From: Leptolyngbya sp. Heron Island J
Lineage (GTDB): Bacteria; Cyanobacteriota; Cyanobacteriia; Phormidesmidales; Phormidesmidaceae
Length of the DNA: 64,000 nucleotides
Reading direction: 5' to 3'
Assembly (NCBI RefSeq): GCF_000482245.1
Contig: NZ_AWNH01000040.1
Location: forward strand, 1-64,000
Part shown: positions 6,930-17,023 of the stretch, in pieces
Position numbering within the stretch: the first letter of the stretch is position 1
How the letters are laid out: every line of letters starts with the position of its first letter
Notes under the pieces: model-generated
What the model was told of the DNA's origin: nothing
Seen by the model: only the letters and a program-made list of their open reading frames with translations
The model's database searches: none
Made by a program: the position numbers and the translations under genes

Positions 6930-8951
6930 ATGTCCAGCGATCTTCCCACCCCTAGCCGAGGGCAGCGTGCGCTCGCCGCTATTGTTGTTACTGATGCGGT
7001 TGGTTTTAGTGCCCGCATGTCGGTTGATGAAGAAAATACACTTCAGCTAATTCAGCGTGACTTAACGTTGATGGCGACCCGATGTCAGGACTTTGAGGGG
7101 CAGGTGCTGAAGTCCACTGGTGATGGCTTGCTGATGTATTTTGTCAGTGCTGTTCAAGCGGTGAGCTGCGCGATCGCAATCCAAAAATCCCTGACAGCCC
7201 AATCCAGGGATACGAATGACCTACCCCACCGCATTGGCATTCACATGGGAGACGTCTTTTTTAACAATTCAGACGTAATGGGCAACAGCGTTAATATTGC
7301 CGCTCGTCTCCAAACCCAGGCAAACCCAGGCGGTATTTGCCTATCCAAAATGATTTACGACCTGGTCAAGGTACGTTTGTCCCTTGATGCAGACTGTGCT
7401 GGTCCACTCCAGCTTAAAAATATTCAAGAACCGATTACGGCTTACCACATTAATGTCGCCGCTGGCTCAAAGCCTAAGACTGCGGCTCGATCCGCGTCAG
7501 GTCCTCAGAAAACAACCTCTAATCCAACATCCTCCCAAAAGCCTACCCCCGTACTGGCAGAAGGTACCAAAGTCGGAGGGCGCTACACCATTAAACGCAT
7601 GTTGGGCCAGGGGGGATTTGGGTTTTCCTACCTGGTTGAAGACACCCAGCGCTTTGGCGAACTCTGTGTACTCAAGGAACTGCGCCCCCTGCAACAACAG
7701 GGCAAGCTCCTACAAAAGGCCATTGAGCTGTTTCAGCGTGAAGCGAAGACGTTACACAGCATTGACCATCCACAAATTCCTAAATTTATGGCCTGTTTTA
7801 CCCAGGCCAAGCGGTTGTTTATTGTCCAGGAATATATCAACGGAGTTACCTATCTAAAACTGCTACAGCAGCGCAAAAAGCAGTCAAAGCTATTTAGTGA
7901 GACAGAAGTGACTGTCTGGATGGCCCATATGCTGCGGGTGCTGAACTATTTGCACAGTCTCAATATTATGCATCGTGATATTTCACCGGAGAATGTGATG
8001 TATTCTCGCGATCGCAACCTGCCCGTACTGATAGACTTTGGCCTGGTCAACAACACCATGTCAGATTCCTTATCAGAAAGCGTCACCCATAACGAAAACC
8101 TCCAAAAAGCAGTGACTGCCGTGGGCAAATTTGGCTATTCCCCACCGGAACAAATGTTTGGCAAATGTACGCCTTCTGGAGATCTGTATGCCCTAGGCGT
8201 GACGGCCCTAGTATTACTGACCGGCAAACATCCCCGTAACCTGATGGACCCCCATACGCTGAACATGGACTGGCAGCAGCATGCACAGATCAGCCCAGCC
8301 CTGGGAAAAATAATTGCCAAAATGACCCGGCAGCAGCCCCAGAATAGATTTCAGTCTGCCCAAGAGGTTTTTGAGCAACTCACACCGTTACTGCCTGTAA
8401 ACTTTAGCAAAACCCTGAGCCAGGTACCCCCGCCACCCGCTGCCATTTCACCGGAGCAGACTGACCGCAGTTCTGGGCCAGACCCCTCCTTTATTGCCCA
8501 GTGTCGCGATGAACTGAGCCGCTGCATTGGTCCCATTGCTGACATGGTCATTGCAGAAACCCTGGAAGATTATCCCAGTGCAACTCCCCAGGAAATTGTT
8601 GAAATTTTAGCCGGGCAAATCTCAGATGCCGATCAGGCCACCGTCTTTTTGAGTCACATTTGTATCCCTGATGAGGCCATGGCCTCCAGTGACACCATGC
8701 CTGAGATTACTACCGTTCTGCAGCAACGTCAGCAAACACTCAAGCCTAACTTTATTGATCACTGCCGTGAGGTATTGGCCCAGTGCATTGGACCTATGGC
8801 CAGCATGATTATTGAGGATACACTGGGGGATTATCCAGATCTCAGCCCCCCGGCTTTTGTTGATCGGCTAGCCAGAGAGATTCCGGACGGAGAGAAAGCG
8901 CAGGAGTTTCGAAATGAGCTGCGCGATGAGATTAGTATCAAGTCAAAGTGA
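6930..8951 (+). CDS. Class III nucleotide cyclase fused to a Ser/Thr protein kinase
   Basis: A 673-residue multidomain signalling protein. Residues 1-170 are a class III cyclase catalytic domain: VTDAVGFSARM has the first metal Asp, KSTGDGLLMYF has the second metal Asp and a purine-recognising Lys, and GNSVNIAARLQ has the transition-state Asn/Arg. All key residues are therefore present. After a Pro/Thr-rich linker, a Hanks-type kinase follows: GQGGFGFSY near 225, VLKEL lysine, HRDISPEN near 350 and DFG near 368. The usual catalytic-loop Lys is Ser, as in some bacterial kinases. The C-terminus has two related helical repeats (about 518-573 and 604-660), each with a C-R-x-x-L and IGP core. No membrane segment is seen. 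The order cyclase then kinase is unusual. Confidence 0.9.
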   Translation: MSSDLPTPSRGQRALAAIVVTDAVGFSARMSVDEENTLQLIQRDLTLMATRCQDFEGQVLKSTGDGLLMYFVSAVQAVSCAIAIQKSLTAQSRDTNDLPHRIGIHMGDVFFNNSDVMGNSVNIAARLQTQANPGGICLSKMIYDLVKVRLSLDADCAGPLQLKNIQEPITAYHINVAAGSKPKTAARSASGPQKTTSNPTSSQKPTPVLAEGTKVGGRYTIKRMLGQGGFGFSYLVEDTQRFGELCVLKELRPLQQQGKLLQKAIELFQREAKTLHSIDHPQIPKFMACFTQAKRLFIVQEYINGVTYLKLLQQRKKQSKLFSETEVTVWMAHMLRVLNYLHSLNIMHRDISPENVMYSRDRNLPVLIDFGLVNNTMSDSLSESVTHNENLQKAVTAVGKFGYSPPEQMFGKCTPSGDLYALGVTALVLLTGKHPRNLMDPHTLNMDWQQHAQISPALGKIIAKMTRQQPQNRFQSAQEVFEQLTPLLPVNFSKTLSQVPPPPAAISPEQTDRSSGPDPSFIAQCRDELSRCIGPIADMVIAETLEDYPSATPQEIVEILAGQISDADQATVFLSHICIPDEAMASSDTMPEITTVLQQRQQTLKPNFIDHCREVLAQCIGPMASMIIEDTLGDYPDLSPPAFVDRLAREIPDGEKAQEFRNELRDEISIKSK

Positions 8952-9051: not shown

Positions 9052-9981
9052 CTATCCGGCTCCCTGACTGCCTTTGCGTTTACGGCGATGTCGTTCTAGC
9101 CGCTGCATAGCCATTTGCAAACTTAGACGCATGCGGTTAAAGGAGTCGGTAAGGTTGCCAACTTCGTCATCGGACCATTTGATAAATTCGGCTTTGGTGT
9201 CGCCCGTACTGACGGCTTCTGCAGTAGCGGCCATGCGATTAATCGGACGGACAACGTAGCGTTTAAGCCAGAAGTTGACCAGGAAAATTGCGATCGCAAA
9301 TACCCCTGTAAACACACCCAAGGTAATCAATAGGGATTGCTTAGCCGTATTAAAAACCGTTTGGGCCGGTACCGAAATAACCTGCGTACCGACAATTTCA
9401 TTCAATTGCCAATTAAAGCCATGCTCACTGCCATAAAGAGAAACCATACTTTTAGGGGCTTGGTCTGGGGAGCCATGGCAGGTCAGACAGGCCTCCTGCT
9501 TAATTTGAATAGGGCGAGCAATATAAAACAGCTTGCCACCGGGGGCAGGTCTAAACCCATGCAACTCATCACGACTGGCATCACGTTGAAATGAACTGAT
9601 CAGCGAAGTCTCAAAGTCATCAGCCTTGTCCTTAGGATTAGTCGGATCTAAAACCGCTTCCTTATAAAAAAAGTCTTCATAATTTTCATTAGACTGCAAC
9701 GTTGCAAACACCCGATGGGCTGAATAGCTAGGGACAATTTCTGGCAAAAATACCGCTTCACTTTCCTCCTCCAGTTCAGGGCGCACCTCATCGACGGTAT
9801 ACTGCCGCACGGAATTCATTGTTTCCATCAGCATCAGCGCCTTATTAGTCAGTTCTGTTTGGGCCGTATAGTTGAGCAGCCTAGAGAGAGCCACACCACT
9901 CATCAGAATGCCGCCCATAAAAACGACCATCAGCATCAGCGTAAACTTTTGTCCGAGTTTTAGTTTCGAAAGCGTTCCCAT
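9052..9981 (-). CDS. Membrane sensor with Tll0287-like (DUF3365) heme-c domain and HAMP
   Basis: A 309-residue membrane protein. A first transmembrane segment (about 13-33, LMLMVVFMGGILMSGVALS) is followed by an extracytoplasmic DUF3365 domain with one c-type heme site, CLTCH, near 185. A second membrane segment (LLITLGVFTGVFAIAIFLV) follows, then a HAMP domain (VVRPINRMAATAEAV to LTDSFNRMR) and a basic tail. No kinase or cyclase output domain follows, so it must signal through a partner. The ATG at 9981, with GGAG just upstream, is preferred over a TTG at 9993. It converges with the cyclase-kinase. A redox or gas sensor is plausible. Confidence 0.85.
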   Translation of the reverse strand: MGTLSKLKLGQKFTLMLMVVFMGGILMSGVALSRLLNYTAQTELTNKALMLMETMNSVRQYTVDEVRPELEEESEAVFLPEIVPSYSAHRVFATLQSNENYEDFFYKEAVLDPTNPKDKADDFETSLISSFQRDASRDELHGFRPAPGGKLFYIARPIQIKQEACLTCHGSPDQAPKSMVSLYGSEHGFNWQLNEIVGTQVISVPAQTVFNTAKQSLLITLGVFTGVFAIAIFLVNFWLKRYVVRPINRMAATAEAVSTGDTKAEFIKWSDDEVGNLTDSFNRMRLSLQMAMQRLERHRRKRKGSQGAG

Positions 9982-10321
9982 AGCTCCAAGCAAAAGAGGT
10001 TTTATCAGATCAGCTGTAGAGGCGTACAGTTGTGCGCCTCTACAGCCTATTGCCCTGTATCTAACGTATCTATTTGGCCCACATTAAGACTGTGAGTCAA
10101 ATCAATTGGCAATATTTCAATACAAACGCTTTTAGATCTTCAACCTCAGAGCCCGGTTTTCAGGTTTGATGCAGCGAAATTATGGAGTTGCTTGTGCTCA
10201 AAACCTTAGTGGCCAGGGAGATATTAGAATCCCCCTGGCTCGCTTTGAGTGAGGACAGACGAGCAATCTCAACTAATCAATACTTTTTTAGTAGGATTAG
10301 GGAAAATGCATAGCCTCGGTG
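9982..10321. other. Intergenic region with a 15-bp palindrome
   Basis: No gene is supported here. A strong stem of 15 pairs including one T-G wobble, GCTGTAGAGGCGTAC (10013-10027) with GTGCGCCTCTACAGC (10032-10046), lies 32 bases upstream of the heme-sensor start. It is probably a dispersed cyanobacterial palindrome within its leader. A second weak stem (GCCAGGG with CCCTGGC, about 10211-10239) lies past the CAP-RTX stop. Confidence 0.55.
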
Positions 10322-11413
10322 TTAAACCATCCGAAATGTGCTGCTGTCCAGATTGAGATTACCTGAGCCACGAATAACTGCAATTAGCTCATCTTGTTGA
10401 CCGGGACCATTGTCAATAAACAAGGCACGACCACTATCAACTCCCTGAGGGGATGAGCCTAACCGATAATTATGATCGTTGCTCAGCTGGATAATATCTC
10501 TCTCGCTCACCTTCAGATCGGTGATCAGCGCATAGTTCTTCGTTCCCAAAGAGTTAGCATTGCCATCGTCATATAGGGTACCTTTCTGATCACCCAAGAC
10601 AAAGGTGTCGCGACCGCTGCCACCAGTCATCACATCTTTCTCAGCTGAACGTCGATGCCAGGCTCCTTTTAAGACATCGTTGCCGGTTCCACCGATCAGT
10701 CTGTCATTGCCCGGACCTCCCAACAACTGATCATTGTCAGCGCCACCAAGAATATAGTCATTACCGTAATGACCGATCAGCTTGTCATTACCTTGATCAC
10801 CATAAATTTTGTCGTTACCTCCCTTCGCGTCGATAAAATCATTGCCTCCTTTACCACCGATACGCTGACTTTTGGAGCCGCCAATTAACCGATCCGCTCC
10901 ATCGGTTCCACGAATCACAGAGTTGTTGCTTGGATTAGGACTCGGGTTGGGGTTGGGACTCGGATTCGGGTTTGGATTGGGATTGGGATTCGAGTTTTCA
11001 ACAGTGCCCTTACCAAACACCTGTGTCCAATAGTGATTGTAGTTGGTGCTGCCAGTGTCATTTTCCAGATAATAATGGCCAATACCAATCTCGTTATAGT
11101 TGGGATTTAGCATGTTAGCTCGGTGACCGGAGCTATTCTTCCAACCATTGAAGACAGCTTGTGCAGAGCGCTGACCTGCAGCGATATTTTCACCAATAGT
11201 TCTAGATTCATAGCCTGCTTGTTGGGCACGGTCCCAGGGCTTGGAGCCATCTCTTCCTGTGTGGGAAAAGTAGTCCTGCCGTGCCATGTCTCTACTATGG
11301 TTGTCAGCGGCCCGTTCTAGGCTTTGATCCAGGAAGAGAGCCTTTAAACCGTTTTGCTGACGAAATTCATTAGTTAGTCTCAGAACTTCTTGTTCAAACG
11401 CTATATTCTGCAT
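10322..11413 (-). CDS. Secreted CAP-domain protein with RTX calcium-binding repeats
   Basis: A 363-residue protein. Residues 5-140 form a CAP (SCP/PR1) domain: [63 protein letters not shown] and YWTQVFG. A low-complexity Asn-Pro/Ser-Pro linker follows (about 144-166), then several GGxGxDxx-type RTX nonapeptides (about 170-255) that bind calcium, and a hydrophobic-aromatic end typical of type I secretion signals. There is no N-terminal signal peptide, which fits ABC-type (type I) export. It is likely an extracellular or sheath protein of unknown role. No T1SS transporter is encoded next to it. Confidence 0.9.
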
Positions 11414-13010: not shown

Positions 13011-14078
13011 CTACAGGTCTAATTGTGCCGCAAAAGGTAGTGTGAGAAGTATTTGGTTTTGTAACTGCCAGGTATCACCATGGTTGAGATGAGCAAACCA
13101 GCTTTGCAATGATTGTTGAATCTGTTCCAGAGGCATGGTTTCACGTTGATAGGCGAGTTTTAGATCCTTTATTCGACGACGACCGCGCTTAAGATTGCTA
13201 GAACAGACTCGAATACGGTTAGGTAAGACTCTAAATCCAAGAAAGGTGGCACCTACTTTGGTTTCAAAGAGTTGACTTTTGATGGGATGAATTTTGAGTC
13301 GGAGGGTAGCGAGATAGGCTTCTATGTATTCTCTTGCGTCTTGTAAAAAAGCTTTGTCATCGCTGAATAGGGCAAAATCATCCACATAGCGAACATAGCG
13401 TTTAACGTGGAGGTTTTCTTTGATGAAATGGTCAAAGCCATTGAGGTAAACATTGGCAAAGAACTGACTGGTGAGGTTGCCAATAGGGAGACCTCGACGA
13501 CGCATAGCGGGGGTAATCAGAGTGTCACCAGAGAAATAATTAATTACGGTTTCTTGTTCGTTGCTGCCGTCGATAATCGCATCGACTAACCGGAGGGTAT
13601 CTTTGCACTTGATCTTGCGACGGATTAAGGTTTTGAGGATCTCAAGGTCAATTGATGGAAAGTATTTACGAATGTCGCACTGTAAAACGTAGCGACTGGA
13701 GCGAGAGAATTTAATAAATTTAGCCAGGGCACGATGGGTGCCAAAACCTACTCGATTGGCATAGGAGTCAGCAATAAAACTACGTTCAAATAGGGGACAA
13801 ATGACAGTACAAAGGGCATGGTGAACCACTCGATCTCGATAGGGTGCGGCGGAAATCATGCGTGGTTTTGGATCGATAATTTTAAACGTTTTATACGCTC
13901 CAGGCTGATAGGTTTTAGTTGCTAATTCTGCCTGTAATTGGATAAGGTTATGTTCTAGATTGAAGTTAAATTCCAGAACATTTTCTCGGAATCGCTTGTC
14001 TTTTTCTGCTTTTCAAGCTGATAGTAATAAGTTTTCAAACTCAATGATGTGGGGCCAGAGATTTCCGTGGCGCTTCAT
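13011..14078 (-). pseudogene. DGR reverse transcriptase, frame interrupted by TGA at codon 22
   Basis: The intact frame 13011-13859 (282 codons) contains the RT core: [27 protein letters not shown], the DGR-type motif [14 protein letters not shown], catalytic YVDD (residues 231-234 of the full frame) and ATFLGFRV. The frame clearly continues upstream with family-typical sequence ([34 protein letters not shown]). It reaches an ATG at 14078 that begins MKRHGNLWPHIIEFENLLLSA and is then cut by TGA at 14013-14015, where relatives often have Arg. The ATG overlaps the 3' end of avd by 38 bases, the usual DGR arrangement. Either the gene is inactivated, or TGA is recoded, or an internal start yields a shortened protein lacking the N-terminal region, or there is a sequencing error. 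Confidence 0.9.
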
Positions 14079-14418
14079 GGTGTTTTACCTTTTGTTGTTT
14101 GATCCAGCCACCCAGCTCATTGCCAATGGCATCAAGTCTTTGACAGATATATCCGTAGCGTTGGGCATCCATTTGTTGAAAGTCGAGAAGCAGCCGAGTT
14201 TGATAGCGTAATATATCTAACTGACTGTTAAGATTTTCCAGACGAGTGAGTTTTTGGCGTTCGTAGCGTGCTTTAATTAGGTGTTCTAGAAAATCGTATA
14301 GGCCAGACGTCATTCGGTCACCTAGTAGGAATTTATGATTCTTTGGTAGTCGGTTGAGTATAGGCACATACCACTTAATTAGGTCGTAGGTTTTCTGAAT
14401 AATTGGTAGTTCTTTCAT
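14041..14418 (-). CDS. avd: DGR accessory variability determinant (Avd)
   Basis: A 125-residue helical protein of the bAvd four-helix-bundle family. In DGRs Avd forms a basic pentamer that binds the RT and is needed for mutagenic retrohoming. The opening MKELPIIQKTYDLIKWYVP, then LPKNHKFLLGDRM and ALIKARYERQK-like LEHLIKARYERQK, are the family signature (S23-ribosomal/Avd-like). The C-terminus GGWIKQQKVKHHEAP is basic. It overlaps the RT start downstream and lies 140 bases from the target gene, with a terminator-like hairpin between. Confidence 0.93.
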   Translation of the reverse strand: MKELPIIQKTYDLIKWYVPILNRLPKNHKFLLGDRMTSGLYDFLEHLIKARYERQKLTRLENLNSQLDILRYQTRLLLDFQQMDAQRYGYICQRLDAIGNELGGWIKQQKVKHHEAPRKSLAPHH

Positions 14419-14557: not shown

Positions 14558-17023
14558 TTATGTCCTGGGAGGAAAACAGACCACCCGAAAACCAATATCG
14601 TAGTAGAAGAGGTCGAGGTCGAGCCTGTAGCGATTAGCAGAGCGGCAGCCGACCGGATTGAAGTACCAGGAACCGCCCCGCAGTATTTTTATTTTGCCAG
14701 AAGATATCCATGCGCTTCCATCTTTAGGGGCATCTTTATAGGTGTCGTGCCAGTCATCTAAGCACCATTCCCATACGTTGCCATGCATGTCGTAAAGGCC
14801 AAATGAGTTTGCGATCGCAAAACTCCCTACCTTAGTGGTCTCTTTGCGATACTGCCCTTTTGGCCCATTGCCGTAAGTAGAACTACCCCTATAATTAGCT
14901 AAATCTGTTGTAATCGTGGGACCAAAATGGAACGGCGTTTTAGTTCCGGCCCGACATGCATATTCCCATTGAGCCTCGCTGGGTAGTTTATACTCCTTCT
15001 TTGTCTTTTTCGACAATCGCTTACAAAACTCTTCAGCATCTTCCCAACTAATTTGTTCGACTGGTCGCTTGGTTCCTTTAAATCTGGCCGGATCTCCTTT
15101 CAAATCACGATTAATCTTGTCAAGCTTTGCCACTGCCTGCCACTGCTCTTGGGTAACCGCAAACTTCCCCATCCAAAACTCAGGCACCGTCACCTGATGC
15201 TGTGGATACTCATCCTTGCTAGCATCTTTTTCTCCCTCAGCAGCCCCCATCATAAACGTGTTACCTGGTATCCGCACCATCTCTAGCTTGATTCCATCAT
15301 CCAAATCTTCAGCAAAAAACTCTGCCTCTTTTTCCAGAGTTTCGATTACTTTACCGTTCTCATCCACCTGAATAGTTTCAAAGGAGAATTTGAGGTTTGG
15401 CTCATTTTGAGTTTGATATTCTTGAACAGATAAGTTGATCTGATTCTTAAGTTTCAGCCAAACATAATTCTGAAAGAGTTCAAGTTTGTTCCAAACCTGC
15501 CAAAAGCTTGAAAAGCTTTTATTTTGGAAAGAAAGAGTTGCCCCACCGACGATTGTAGGTGGTTCAAATCCCAAGATTTCCCGCTGATGGGGTAACTGTG
15601 ACCAATCGCCTTCATCGGCCATCCATAACACTCTTACCCAACGATAGGTTCCATGGTTATCACTGCATATATCAGTGTCTAATACCTCAACGATATGGGT
15701 AACCCGAGCACGCTGATGTAGGATAATTAACTCATGTGCCGATGGAGTTTGAGCACCTTTACTACTTGCAGGCCAGAATAATTCAAATACTCTAGAGTCT
15801 ACAGAGCCACCACTCTGTTTAATGCGCTGAAGTGTGTATGCCCACCCGTTTGGATCTTTGATATTTTTGAGGTAGAGAATTTTCGAAGTATCAGCAAGAG
15901 TCTTATAAGGTACTTCAGGTAGAGGATTTAAACTTTTTTCAAGCCTATGACCCAAAATCCCTACCTCTGCTGCCTGCACATCTTCATCTCGTAAATTTAG
16001 CAACCGCTTTAACTCTTCAAAATCTTCAATGATTTCACGGGAAAATGGGTAGGCTTCCTCTTTCTCAGCTTTCAATGCTTGAGTATAGGTTTCTAGATGA
16101 TTTGCCCTTTCTTTGTAGGGCTTGAGAACTTCATCTAAAATCTTTTCTGCATCTGTATTTGAGACTTTAAATTGTGTCTGTTTCTGCTTCAAAGTGGCTT
16201 TCGCCGCATAATTTAAACGACCATTTCTCTCGTTGACTTTACGCTGTACTTCTTTTCGATAACGTTGTGCATTATCTACCTGCACCTTAGCAATAATAAT
16301 TCCAGGTCCCTGTTCTTTATTAAACATGAGGGGTTCCATAGCAGGTGCCGCTGCTTTTACCTGGGTATACACATACTGATGTAAATCCCCAATGGCAATA
16401 AAGTTTTGTCCGTCCGGTGCTGCACCACCTGTTCTTAAGCCTTCTACTAAATAGCGGGTATACACCGACAAATCTTCACCTTCTTGTTCTAGGGCGTATT
16501 TCATTGATGTGGCAGCTGTCAGCACACACCAGCCCTTACCTCCCAAATAAGTTTCAACATCGACACTGCCATCATCCATAGCTAAAAAGCCATCAACAAA
16601 CGCTCCAGCAAAGCAACAATCTAAAATGATGACTTTACGCCTAGTAGGGGAACTCTCAATCACATCTTTCAGAAAATCAGCAGACACTGCTGTTCCCATA
16701 TTTGGACTACCGTTTCCAAAAAGCTGAGTTTGGGCAGTGGATAGATAAAATTTGCCAGACATCATATCCTTGATGCCGTGACCTGTGAAATAAAACAGCA
16801 CCATGTCATGTTGAGTGAGGTTTTGGGTAAACACTTCACTAATGCGAGACCGCATTGTGAATAAATCCGGATTAATCAGCGGCACCACCTGATCAAAACC
16901 ACCAATCTCAGGATTTTCCAGCAATTCTTGCATGGCACCCACACCATTAGCCGGACATCGCAACGGCTTTAGCCCATTGCCATACTCCCCAACACCAATC
17001 AGCAATGCAATCTTTCTAGCCAT
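14558..17023 (-). CDS. Caspase (C14)-FGE fusion, DGR variable target protein
   Basis: An 821-residue protein. Residues 1-250 form an orthocaspase domain: KIALLIGVGEYG, catalytic His82 in YFTGHG, and catalytic Cys137 in LDCCFAG. A helical middle follows (about 270-360, with ATLKQKQTQFKVSNTDAEKI and LLNLRDEDVQAAE), like repeats seen in other cyanobacterial signalling proteins. Next is an uncharacterised beta-rich segment (about 380-500), then an FGE/sulfatase-modifying-factor domain (about 580-821: PGNTFMMGAAEGE, SWEDAEEFCKRLS, SEAQWEYACRAGT, DMHGNVWEWC). The last about 40 residues are the DGR variable region. The EACC1-like gene lies just upstream. Predicted role: ligand sensing by the variable FGE fold triggers the caspase. 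There is no signal peptide, so it acts in the cytoplasm. Confidence 0.95.
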   Translation of the reverse strand: MARKIALLIGVGEYGNGLKPLRCPANGVGAMQELLENPEIGGFDQVVPLINPDLFTMRSRISEVFTQNLTQHDMVLFYFTGHGIKDMMSGKFYLSTAQTQLFGNGSPNMGTAVSADFLKDVIESSPTRRKVIILDCCFAGAFVDGFLAMDDGSVDVETYLGGKGWCVLTAATSMKYALEQEGEDLSVYTRYLVEGLRTGGAAPDGQNFIAIGDLHQYVYTQVKAAAPAMEPLMFNKEQGPGIIIAKVQVDNAQRYRKEVQRKVNERNGRLNYAAKATLKQKQTQFKVSNTDAEKILDEVLKPYKERANHLETYTQALKAEKEEAYPFSREIIEDFEELKRLLNLRDEDVQAAEVGILGHRLEKSLNPLPEVPYKTLADTSKILYLKNIKDPNGWAYTLQRIKQSGGSVDSRVFELFWPASSKGAQTPSAHELIILHQRARVTHIVEVLDTDICSDNHGTYRWVRVLWMADEGDWSQLPHQREILGFEPPTIVGGATLSFQNKSFSSFWQVWNKLELFQNYVWLKLKNQINLSVQEYQTQNEPNLKFSFETIQVDENGKVIETLEKEAEFFAEDLDDGIKLEMVRIPGNTFMMGAAEGEKDASKDEYPQHQVTVPEFWMGKFAVTQEQWQAVAKLDKINRDLKGDPARFKGTKRPVEQISWEDAEEFCKRLSKKTKKEYKLPSEAQWEYACRAGTKTPFHFGPTITTDLANYRGSSTYGNGPKGQYRKETTKVGSFAIANSFGLYDMHGNVWEWCLDDWHDTYKDAPKDGSAWISSGKIKILRGGSWYFNPVGCRSANRYRLDLDLFYYDIGFRVVCFPPRT
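14565..14684 (-). repeat. DGR variable repeat (VR) in the caspase-FGE gene
   Basis: This is the 3' end of the target gene and encodes LRGGSWYFNPVGCRSANRYR and onward through IGFRVVCFPP. It matches the TR at 12832-12951 at every position that is not adenine in the TR. The 15 changes give 10 amino-acid replacements (for example N to Y, F, G, L and D; D to V; Y to F) plus one silent CGA to CGG. The invariant flanks RGGSW, CRSANR and IGFRVVC are kept. The VR ends at the GC-containing CCTCCCAG, a few codons from the stop. Confidence 0.95.

Follow-up and report, generated by a model that had tools for sequence, protein, structure and literature searches.

A window of 64,000 nucleotides from Leptolyngbya sp. 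Heron Island J (contig NZ_AWNH01000040.1, positions 1 to 64,000, the whole stretch of DNA analyzed here) contains a gene for a protein of 673 amino acids (aa) in which a nucleotide cyclase, a Ser/Thr kinase and two C-terminal repeats are joined. A gene for a membrane receptor converges on it, and we consider here whether the repeats, which we call STAC-like, could connect the two products. The features of the locus are as follows.

6930-8951, forward strand: whole gene, cyclase, kinase and two STAC-like repeats (673 aa, ATG start, single uninterrupted frame)
6957-7454, forward strand: class III nucleotide cyclase domain (residues 10-175; D22, K61, D65, D115, N122, R126)
7584-8369, forward strand: Hanks-type kinase domain (residues 219-480; Pfam Pkinase, 130 bits, cut-off 31.7)
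7971-7994, forward strand: catalytic loop HRDISPEN, without the usual Lys (residues 348-355)
8481-8660, forward strand: repeat 1, CIGPIA core (residues 518-577)
8742-8921, forward strand: repeat 2, CIGPMA core (residues 605-664)
9052-9993, reverse strand: convergent neighbor, a Tll0287 (sCache_heme)-HAMP membrane receptor that stops about 20 residues past HAMP
9115-9270, reverse strand: HAMP domain, the sole recognizable cytosolic part of the receptor (PF00672, 44.9 bits, cut-off 25)
9367-9867, reverse strand: Tll0287-like/sCache_heme domain, CXXCH present as CLTCH (PF11845, 145.7 bits, cut-off 24.1; E value 1.9e-42)

The fused cyclase-kinase and the adjoining receptor

Under the gene, the opposite strand has no frame of at least 100 aa, and a 157-aa frame (7384-7857, forward strand) is nested within it. 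A scan for promoters and terminators at the gene gave results near chance level. In the 673-aa protein, no membrane-type hydrophobic segment was found except within the cyclase core. We searched 59 genomes, the source genome included, for the cyclase-kinase chain and found it full or near-full in 26 of them (the copy in genome G033 ends at a contig edge, and the alignment in G058 spans residues 3-494, yet its repeats are present). Among the relatives are Leptolyngbya sp. PCC 7375, Adonisia turfae and Leptolyngbya cf. ectocarpi. Six named or metagenome contigs carry the chain with 71 to 83% identity, and it also occurs in more distant families (loci L116, L121, L140, L141, L142 and L145). A stop was flagged in 2 of the 26 genomes: in G007, a TAG lies inside the kinase directly past K249 and not at a domain boundary, and in G028, a 725-aa frame (L093) contains all four parts despite the flag. 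Since the fused architecture is conserved, it is no accident of frame or assembly, and two separate proteins were set aside given the single frame shared by the relatives. The initial annotation, which had described a cyclase followed by a Hanks kinase and two repeats in one polypeptide, is thus borne out by the frame, the Pfam domains and the conservation. In a metagenome bin (L025/L031), an in-frame TAG was observed within the kinase domain of the fused gene, which may reflect a sequencing error or a pseudogene.

The cyclase domain matched Pfam Guanylate_cyc at residues 17-174 (35.6 bits; cut-off 21.9), and the closest sequence relative of the whole protein in the PDB, 3mr7, is a cyclase. 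All six signature residues are kept; we take D22 and D65 to be the metal ligands and K61 and D115 to contact the base, while N122 and R126 complete the set. According to PMC1262709, a Lys and an Asp form the adenylyl pair. Because K61 and D115 match this pair, the product is probably cyclic AMP (cAMP) rather than cGMP. The annotated class III cyclase with both metal Asps, the Lys and the Asn/Arg was therefore recovered, its open choice between cAMP and cGMP narrows in favor of cAMP, and a catalytically dead cyclase was set aside given the intact residues. All six residues are kept in 30 of 34 distinct cyclase domains that share a chain with a kinase or a repeat. The Asn was lost in three of the 34 (replaced by Thr in L051 and L145, and by Lys, with further changes, in L116), and one is unreadable at D22, where the stretch is cut. 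Cyclase activity may therefore not be required in every member. The source genome has a second cyclase (G000:C35:4658-5170; L004), which is 62% identical to the window's cyclase domain and lies in a 611-aa frame; to the eye, the remaining approximately 400 residues of this frame resemble related helical segments, for which Pfam gave nothing above its cut-off. Cyclase matches within frames of about 600 to 650 aa are present in many relatives.

The kinase retains the signature motifs GQGGFG (226-231), K249, E271, D350 of HRD and D369 of DFG. The absence of the catalytic-loop Lys, pointed out in the initial annotation, is real, and the loop reads as a trait of this kinase subfamily and not as a defect. 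HRDISP was found in 101 of 115 repeat-bearing kinase frames (not de-duplicated). The source genome has 30 kinase genes above the Pfam cut-off, and among the 24 with a readable loop motif, 18 have the Lys, while 6 lack it (3 HRDISP, 1 HRDINP and 2 HGD forms). Being common both to the subfamily and to other kinases of the source genome, the Lys-less loop is ordinary. A 2007 survey reported the Lys in 86.7% of cyanobacterial kinases (PMC2176072); a literature search for the HRDISP loop found no paper.

Chains of this general kind are already known. Myxococcus xanthus Pkn2 also joins a Hanks kinase and a class III cyclase (PMC1262709), but there the order is reversed, a membrane segment is present and the cyclase specificity residues differ. 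The TOMM kinase/cyclase fusion (TIGR03903) likewise combines both activities by its model name; as an identity for the window protein it was rejected, with a score of 89.5 against an NCBIfam cut-off of 705.75 and the best stretch over the kinase only.

The receptor encoded at 9052-9993 has two hydrophobic segments in a signaling-type layout and no output domain. All eight neighbors run through Pfam, the window's included, contain Tll0287 and HAMP only. In a chosen set of 20 distinct neighbors (21 aligned rows, one a duplicate), each has the CXXCH motif and ends within approximately 35 residues of HAMP, with a partly conserved tail. The receptor shares two hydrophobic segments, CXXCH, Tll0287, HAMP and the lack of an output domain with sCache_heme-HAMP receptors (DUF3365/Tll0287) such as the nitric oxide (NO)-binding protein of P. 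azotoformans. Tight NO binding has been published for one homologue only (PMC12889525, a preprint). In the same preprint, a signaling-type Tll0287 protein, which carries HAMP in addition to membrane helices, had NO-sensor properties, and a stand-alone sCache_heme protein was described as apparently redox-related; the part of it available to us makes no mention of a separate repeat-bearing effector partner.

The C-terminal repeats and their likeness to STAC

The C-terminal approximately 160 residues of the 673-aa protein gave no Pfam match above the cut-off. Known Pfam or NCBIfam domains were rejected as an identity for the repeats, the best sub-threshold matches, to PXA (0.0048) and ARM_TANGO6 (0.01), being taken as chance. 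In a BLASTP comparison, the two repeats aligned without gaps with 26 of 59 residues identical and 40 of 59 positive (E value 6e-19 for that lone comparison). The annotated pair of related repeats was thus confirmed, with a unit of about 60 and not 56 residues. The G and P of the core are invariant over 25 aligned repeats.

The repeat profile matched in at least 112 of 388 cyanobacterial genomes of the class, a count that may be low, since at most 16 candidates were scored per genome. In the source genome, the sole credible repeats are the two in the 673-aa protein (103 of 103 candidates scored; next E values, 0.2 and 0.7), while some other genomes, such as G054, G012 and G316, have more than one repeat protein. 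At the fetched loci, the repeats are attached to diverse partners: Hanks kinases with one to three copies, cyclase-kinases, a 437-aa kinase-less cyclase that has two repeats (L233), C14 caspases (identified by Pfam at L112 and L113 and by eye at L119), a CHAT protein (L115) and an FHA protein (L111). In Rippkaea orientalis PCC 8801, one caspase-repeat example is encoded on a plasmid. There are also small repeat proteins in which no catalytic domain was recognized (L107 to L110, L131 and L134; no Pfam match or Pfam not run). In a kinase tree, from which partial or split matches such as L124, L133 and L114 were omitted, repeat-bearing kinases appear at several separate places. The cyclase-kinase chains were spread over more than one clade, with five changes in the tree, several of whose branches are long and uncertain in position. 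Because it is scattered over the kinase tree and found on diverse effectors, the repeat behaves as a portable module.

Two sets of repeat proteins were noted in passing. The loci L107, L108 and L109 each encode a tandem pair of frames of about 190 to 215 aa, with one repeat near each C terminus and an unannotated N-terminal part; wider stretches around L107 and L108 contained no Tll0287 or HAMP. The caspase-type proteins of L113 (2442-4634, reverse strand), L112 (2908-5166, reverse strand) and L119 end in repeats, with degenerate extra copies.

An AlphaFold2 model of repeat 2 (75-aa segment, nine-row alignment) had a mean predicted local distance difference test (pLDDT) score of 87 and showed helices at 8-22, 25-36, 42-51 and 56-65 and a short one at 67-70. 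IGPMA, at model positions 22-26, lies between helix 1, which extends to 22, and helix 2, which begins at 25. This layout resembles that of STAC, a domain of about 60 to 90 residues with four helices and the motif LGPx(x)A between helices 1 and 2 (PMC4834066); in the repeat, I replaces the L. When a profile of 25 diverse repeats was compared with 177,635 PDB sequences, the single match at an E value of up to 5 was Af1502, with IGPIA aligned on IGPIA. Af1502 is a STAC structure, and its gene is coupled to that of Af1503, a receptor with nothing but HAMP on the cytosolic side (PMC4834066). VIA-align of 52 Foldseek candidates also placed Af1502 first (Z 6.1, root-mean-square deviation 2.8 Å over 61 residues; next Z, 4.3), and in Foldseek, it had the highest probability (0.63) and TM-score. 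The absence of other folds from these structural lists carries no evidence.

The repeats share with the STAC domains of Af1502 and of CbrA, CrbS and RpuS a length of about 60 residues, four main helices and an (L/I)GPxxA-type motif between helices 1 and 2. As with Af1502 and Af1503, many repeat genes, the window's included, adjoin a gene for a receptor with HAMP as its sole cytosolic part. In contrast to STAC systems, the repeats are here C-terminal, in tandem and on a soluble cyclase-kinase, and SLC5 and the histidine kinase are absent. Homology of the repeats to STAC is suggestive and not proven; because the profile comparison described below was not significant, we named them STAC-like and did not file them as STAC. 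A search for SLC5-STAC kinases in 242 genomes of the class gave no match, which is uninformative, the search having had no positive control.

Repeat genes beside heme-Cache receptor genes

In the 59 genomes, we counted 125 Tll0287 matches, including fragments and one match below the cut-off (G031), and 53 repeat open reading frames (ORFs), one row per ORF, with two doubtful ones retained (G017, 35 aa, and G008:C7). A "short" Tll0287 class was defined as frames of 290 to 420 aa among the 60 best matches (n = 42). Twenty-four of these 42 lie within 3.5 kb of a repeat ORF, compared to none of the 83 other Tll0287 matches. Conversely, 27 of the 53 repeat ORFs have a Tll0287 match within this distance, as do the chains in 16 of the 26 chain-bearing genomes. 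Both elements are present in 30 genomes and neither in 23; four have the repeat only, and two the short Tll0287 only. Neighbors are missed at contig ends.

At the fetched loci, counted with one ORF per distinct last 120 residues and fragments included, a Tll0287 ORF was present on the same locus for 38 of 69 repeat-kinases, 3 of 19 repeat proteins without kinase and 1 of 40 kinases without repeat, this single case coming from L136, a repeat locus with a second kinase; many flanks were at most 1.5 kb, so that misses are over-counted. When the downstream flank had to be 2 kb or longer and the distance limit was set to 2 kb, the fractions were 14/21 for cyclase-kinase-repeat, 14/23 for kinase-repeat, 1/1 for cyclase-repeat and 3/15 for repeat-only proteins. 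Kinases without repeat gave 0/5, too few for a control, and the flank rule excluded the window gene itself. Inspected by eye, none of the 29 other source-genome kinases that pass the Pfam cut-off has a Tll0287 match within 2 kb; the closest case, on contig C34, has one at a distance of 2.2 kb, located in a 688-aa frame.

The link to the receptor tracks the repeat rather than one kinase lineage, since 8 of the 10 repeat-bearing kinases outside the main clade have a receptor neighbor (L112, L122, L128, L129, L130, L132, L137 and L138, but not L120 and L135). Furthermore, the effector is swapped beside the same receptor class, being a kinase, a cyclase-kinase, a caspase (L113 and L112) or a cyclase alone (L233). 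At L113, the open frames of the caspase-repeat protein and the receptor are 11 bp apart, and at L112, a kinase gene intervenes. At L233 (4827-8364), the cyclase-repeat gene is 337 bp from a convergent Tll0287-HAMP gene, which is followed by a PhnD-like lipoprotein gene. A gene for a PhnD-like periplasmic binding protein is often the third neighbor (23 of 69 repeat-kinases, 4 of 19 repeat proteins without kinase and 2 of 40 kinases without repeat, both at repeat loci). It was rejected as an obligatory partner: the source genome has distant matches only, on other contigs and with 22 and 31% identity.

Of all parts of the protein, the repeats tell the most: unrelated effectors carry them, and a gene for a heme-HAMP receptor that lacks an output often accompanies them. 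The initial annotation had handled them as a detail and left the adjoining gene unconnected.

A possible split receptor-enzyme and its alternatives

We propose, with a rough probability of 0.55, that the protein encoded at 6930-8951 and the heme receptor together make up a split transmembrane receptor, in which the former is the soluble effector and is tethered to the latter by the STAC-like repeats. This proposal brings together a soluble enzyme chain, an output-less membrane receptor, the gene association and a module resembling STAC, which itself occurs beside HAMP-only receptors. The receptor would consist of two membrane segments flanking a periplasmic c-type-heme Cache domain, then HAMP. 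The two repeats would bind it, most likely at HAMP or at the short tail past HAMP. A change at the heme (NO or redox) would be passed through HAMP to the repeats and could alter the cyclase, the kinase or both, so that a single input might lead to cAMP and phosphorylation.

Several observations weigh against this proposal. Taken singly, neither the profile match to Af1502 (E value 0.21) nor the structural matches to it reach significance. Z values of this size are common among four-helix matches, and by E value, Af1502 was only fifth in Foldseek (3.4), another protein being best (1.3). A profile-profile comparison with 14 STAC domains of the SLC5 type (RpuS and relatives; a fifteenth sequence, L209, was dropped because its STAC is incomplete) placed the IG motifs in register, but the probability was 1.6% and was exceeded by 5 of 40 control windows, the top ones overlapping each other, and by none of 100 column shuffles. 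A model of the full-length 673-aa protein was too poor (mean pLDDT 44.8, 6 sequences). Removal of STAC from CbrA or CrbS caused no obvious growth difference (PMC5715377). Regarding the gene association, the cut for the short Tll0287 class was chosen after inspection of the table, and close relatives, which are not independent, are included in the counts; a Fisher test, which takes no account of relatedness, was disregarded. Twenty-six of the 53 repeat ORFs have no receptor gene nearby, some of them on short contigs, and in G014, G020 and G058, both genes are on one contig, at distances of 58, 51 and 462 kb, respectively. In wider stretches around 20 repeat loci, picked mostly for having no receptor seen before, a Tll0287-HAMP gene was found in only two, one of them previously known; therefore, the repeat also works elsewhere. 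Finally, the window's neighbor is convergent, and there is no operon.

A less favored but still serious explanation is that the protein is an ordinary soluble kinase-cyclase, in which the repeats form a dimerizing or stabilizing tail of a homodimer and the receptor gene is a passenger. Four-helix bundles often dimerize, class III cyclases function as dimers, and since the source genome has no credible repeats outside the 673-aa protein, repeat pairing would be internal to that protein; the convergent transcription of the receptor gene fits as well. Against this explanation, Tll0287-HAMP-only neighbors recur beside repeat genes in several families and kinase lineages, with the other 83 Tll0287 matches never beside repeats. 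Small repeat proteins without a recognized catalytic domain also speak against it, and the nearest structure, Af1502, was judged monomeric in solution (PMC4834066).

It is rather improbable that the repeat serves a conflict or cell-death network as a homotypic adaptor, in the manner of the effector-associated domains (EADs) or Death-like domains that recruit caspases and kinases in multicellular bacteria. Its presence on caspase, CHAT, FHA, kinase and cyclase proteins is reminiscent of such networks (PMC8195603), and like EADs, it is a small module common to kinases, cyclases and caspases. PYD domains were among the weaker structural matches (Z 4.0 and 2.6), which points the same way, as do the E values of the kinase domain against the PADLOC PD-T4-6 kinase model (3.2e-75) and of the L113 caspase against the PADLOC caspase model (3.8e-23), both of which concern the catalytic domain only. 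In contrast to EADs, however, the repeats match no Pfam family above chance, and the source genome offers no second repeat protein for recruitment; moreover, the genes found in association with the repeats encode a sensor-type receptor (no search for NTPase cores was made). Regulation of the kinase by the cyclase, or the reverse, within the chain, with an intracellular cue setting both and no membrane receptor, is very improbable. It would agree with the conservation of the chain and of the six cyclase residues, but the same repeats are also found on a kinase or a cyclase alone, and three cyclase domains have lost the catalytic Asn; therefore, neither enzyme strictly depends on the other.

Beyond the split receptor-enzyme proposed for this locus, STAC-like domains could tentatively be seen as a general plug that recruits separate effectors to HAMP-ended receptors. 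In cyanobacteria, one such plug would make kinases, adenylate cyclases, cyclase-kinases and caspases interchangeable on a shared NO/redox heme-Cache receptor; we regard this wider idea as possible and somewhat doubtful. HAMP-terminated receptors such as Af1503 have no recognizable output (PMC4834066), and the role of STAC has been called unknown or unclear (PMC5715377 and PMC13022988). If the plug idea holds, it suggests how Af1503-type receptors, long without a known effector, send their signal, and periplasmic heme/NO sensing in cyanobacteria would be linked to cAMP, Ser/Thr phosphorylation and caspase-like proteases. A repeat with identifiable enzymes beside a HAMP-only receptor makes the role of STAC directly testable. 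Soluble kinases, cyclases and caspases that end in STAC-like repeats and are linked to heme-HAMP receptors appear to be new: no description of the combination was found in the portions covered of the literature on cyclase-kinase chains, PhnD with DUF3365, effector-associated domains, and STAC in cyanobacteria or with Ser/Thr kinases, the original STAC description lying outside this scope.

Two further parts of the window were noted. At positions 10322-11413 (reverse strand), RTX-type glycine-rich repeats were recognized by eye after a CAP/SCP-like domain. Positions 13011-13859 (reverse strand) encode a reverse transcriptase with a YVDDF core; together with a small helical-looking ORF (14041-14418, reverse strand) and a large adjoining ORF (14558-17023), it forms a candidate diversity-generating retroelement, which it resembles in its motifs.

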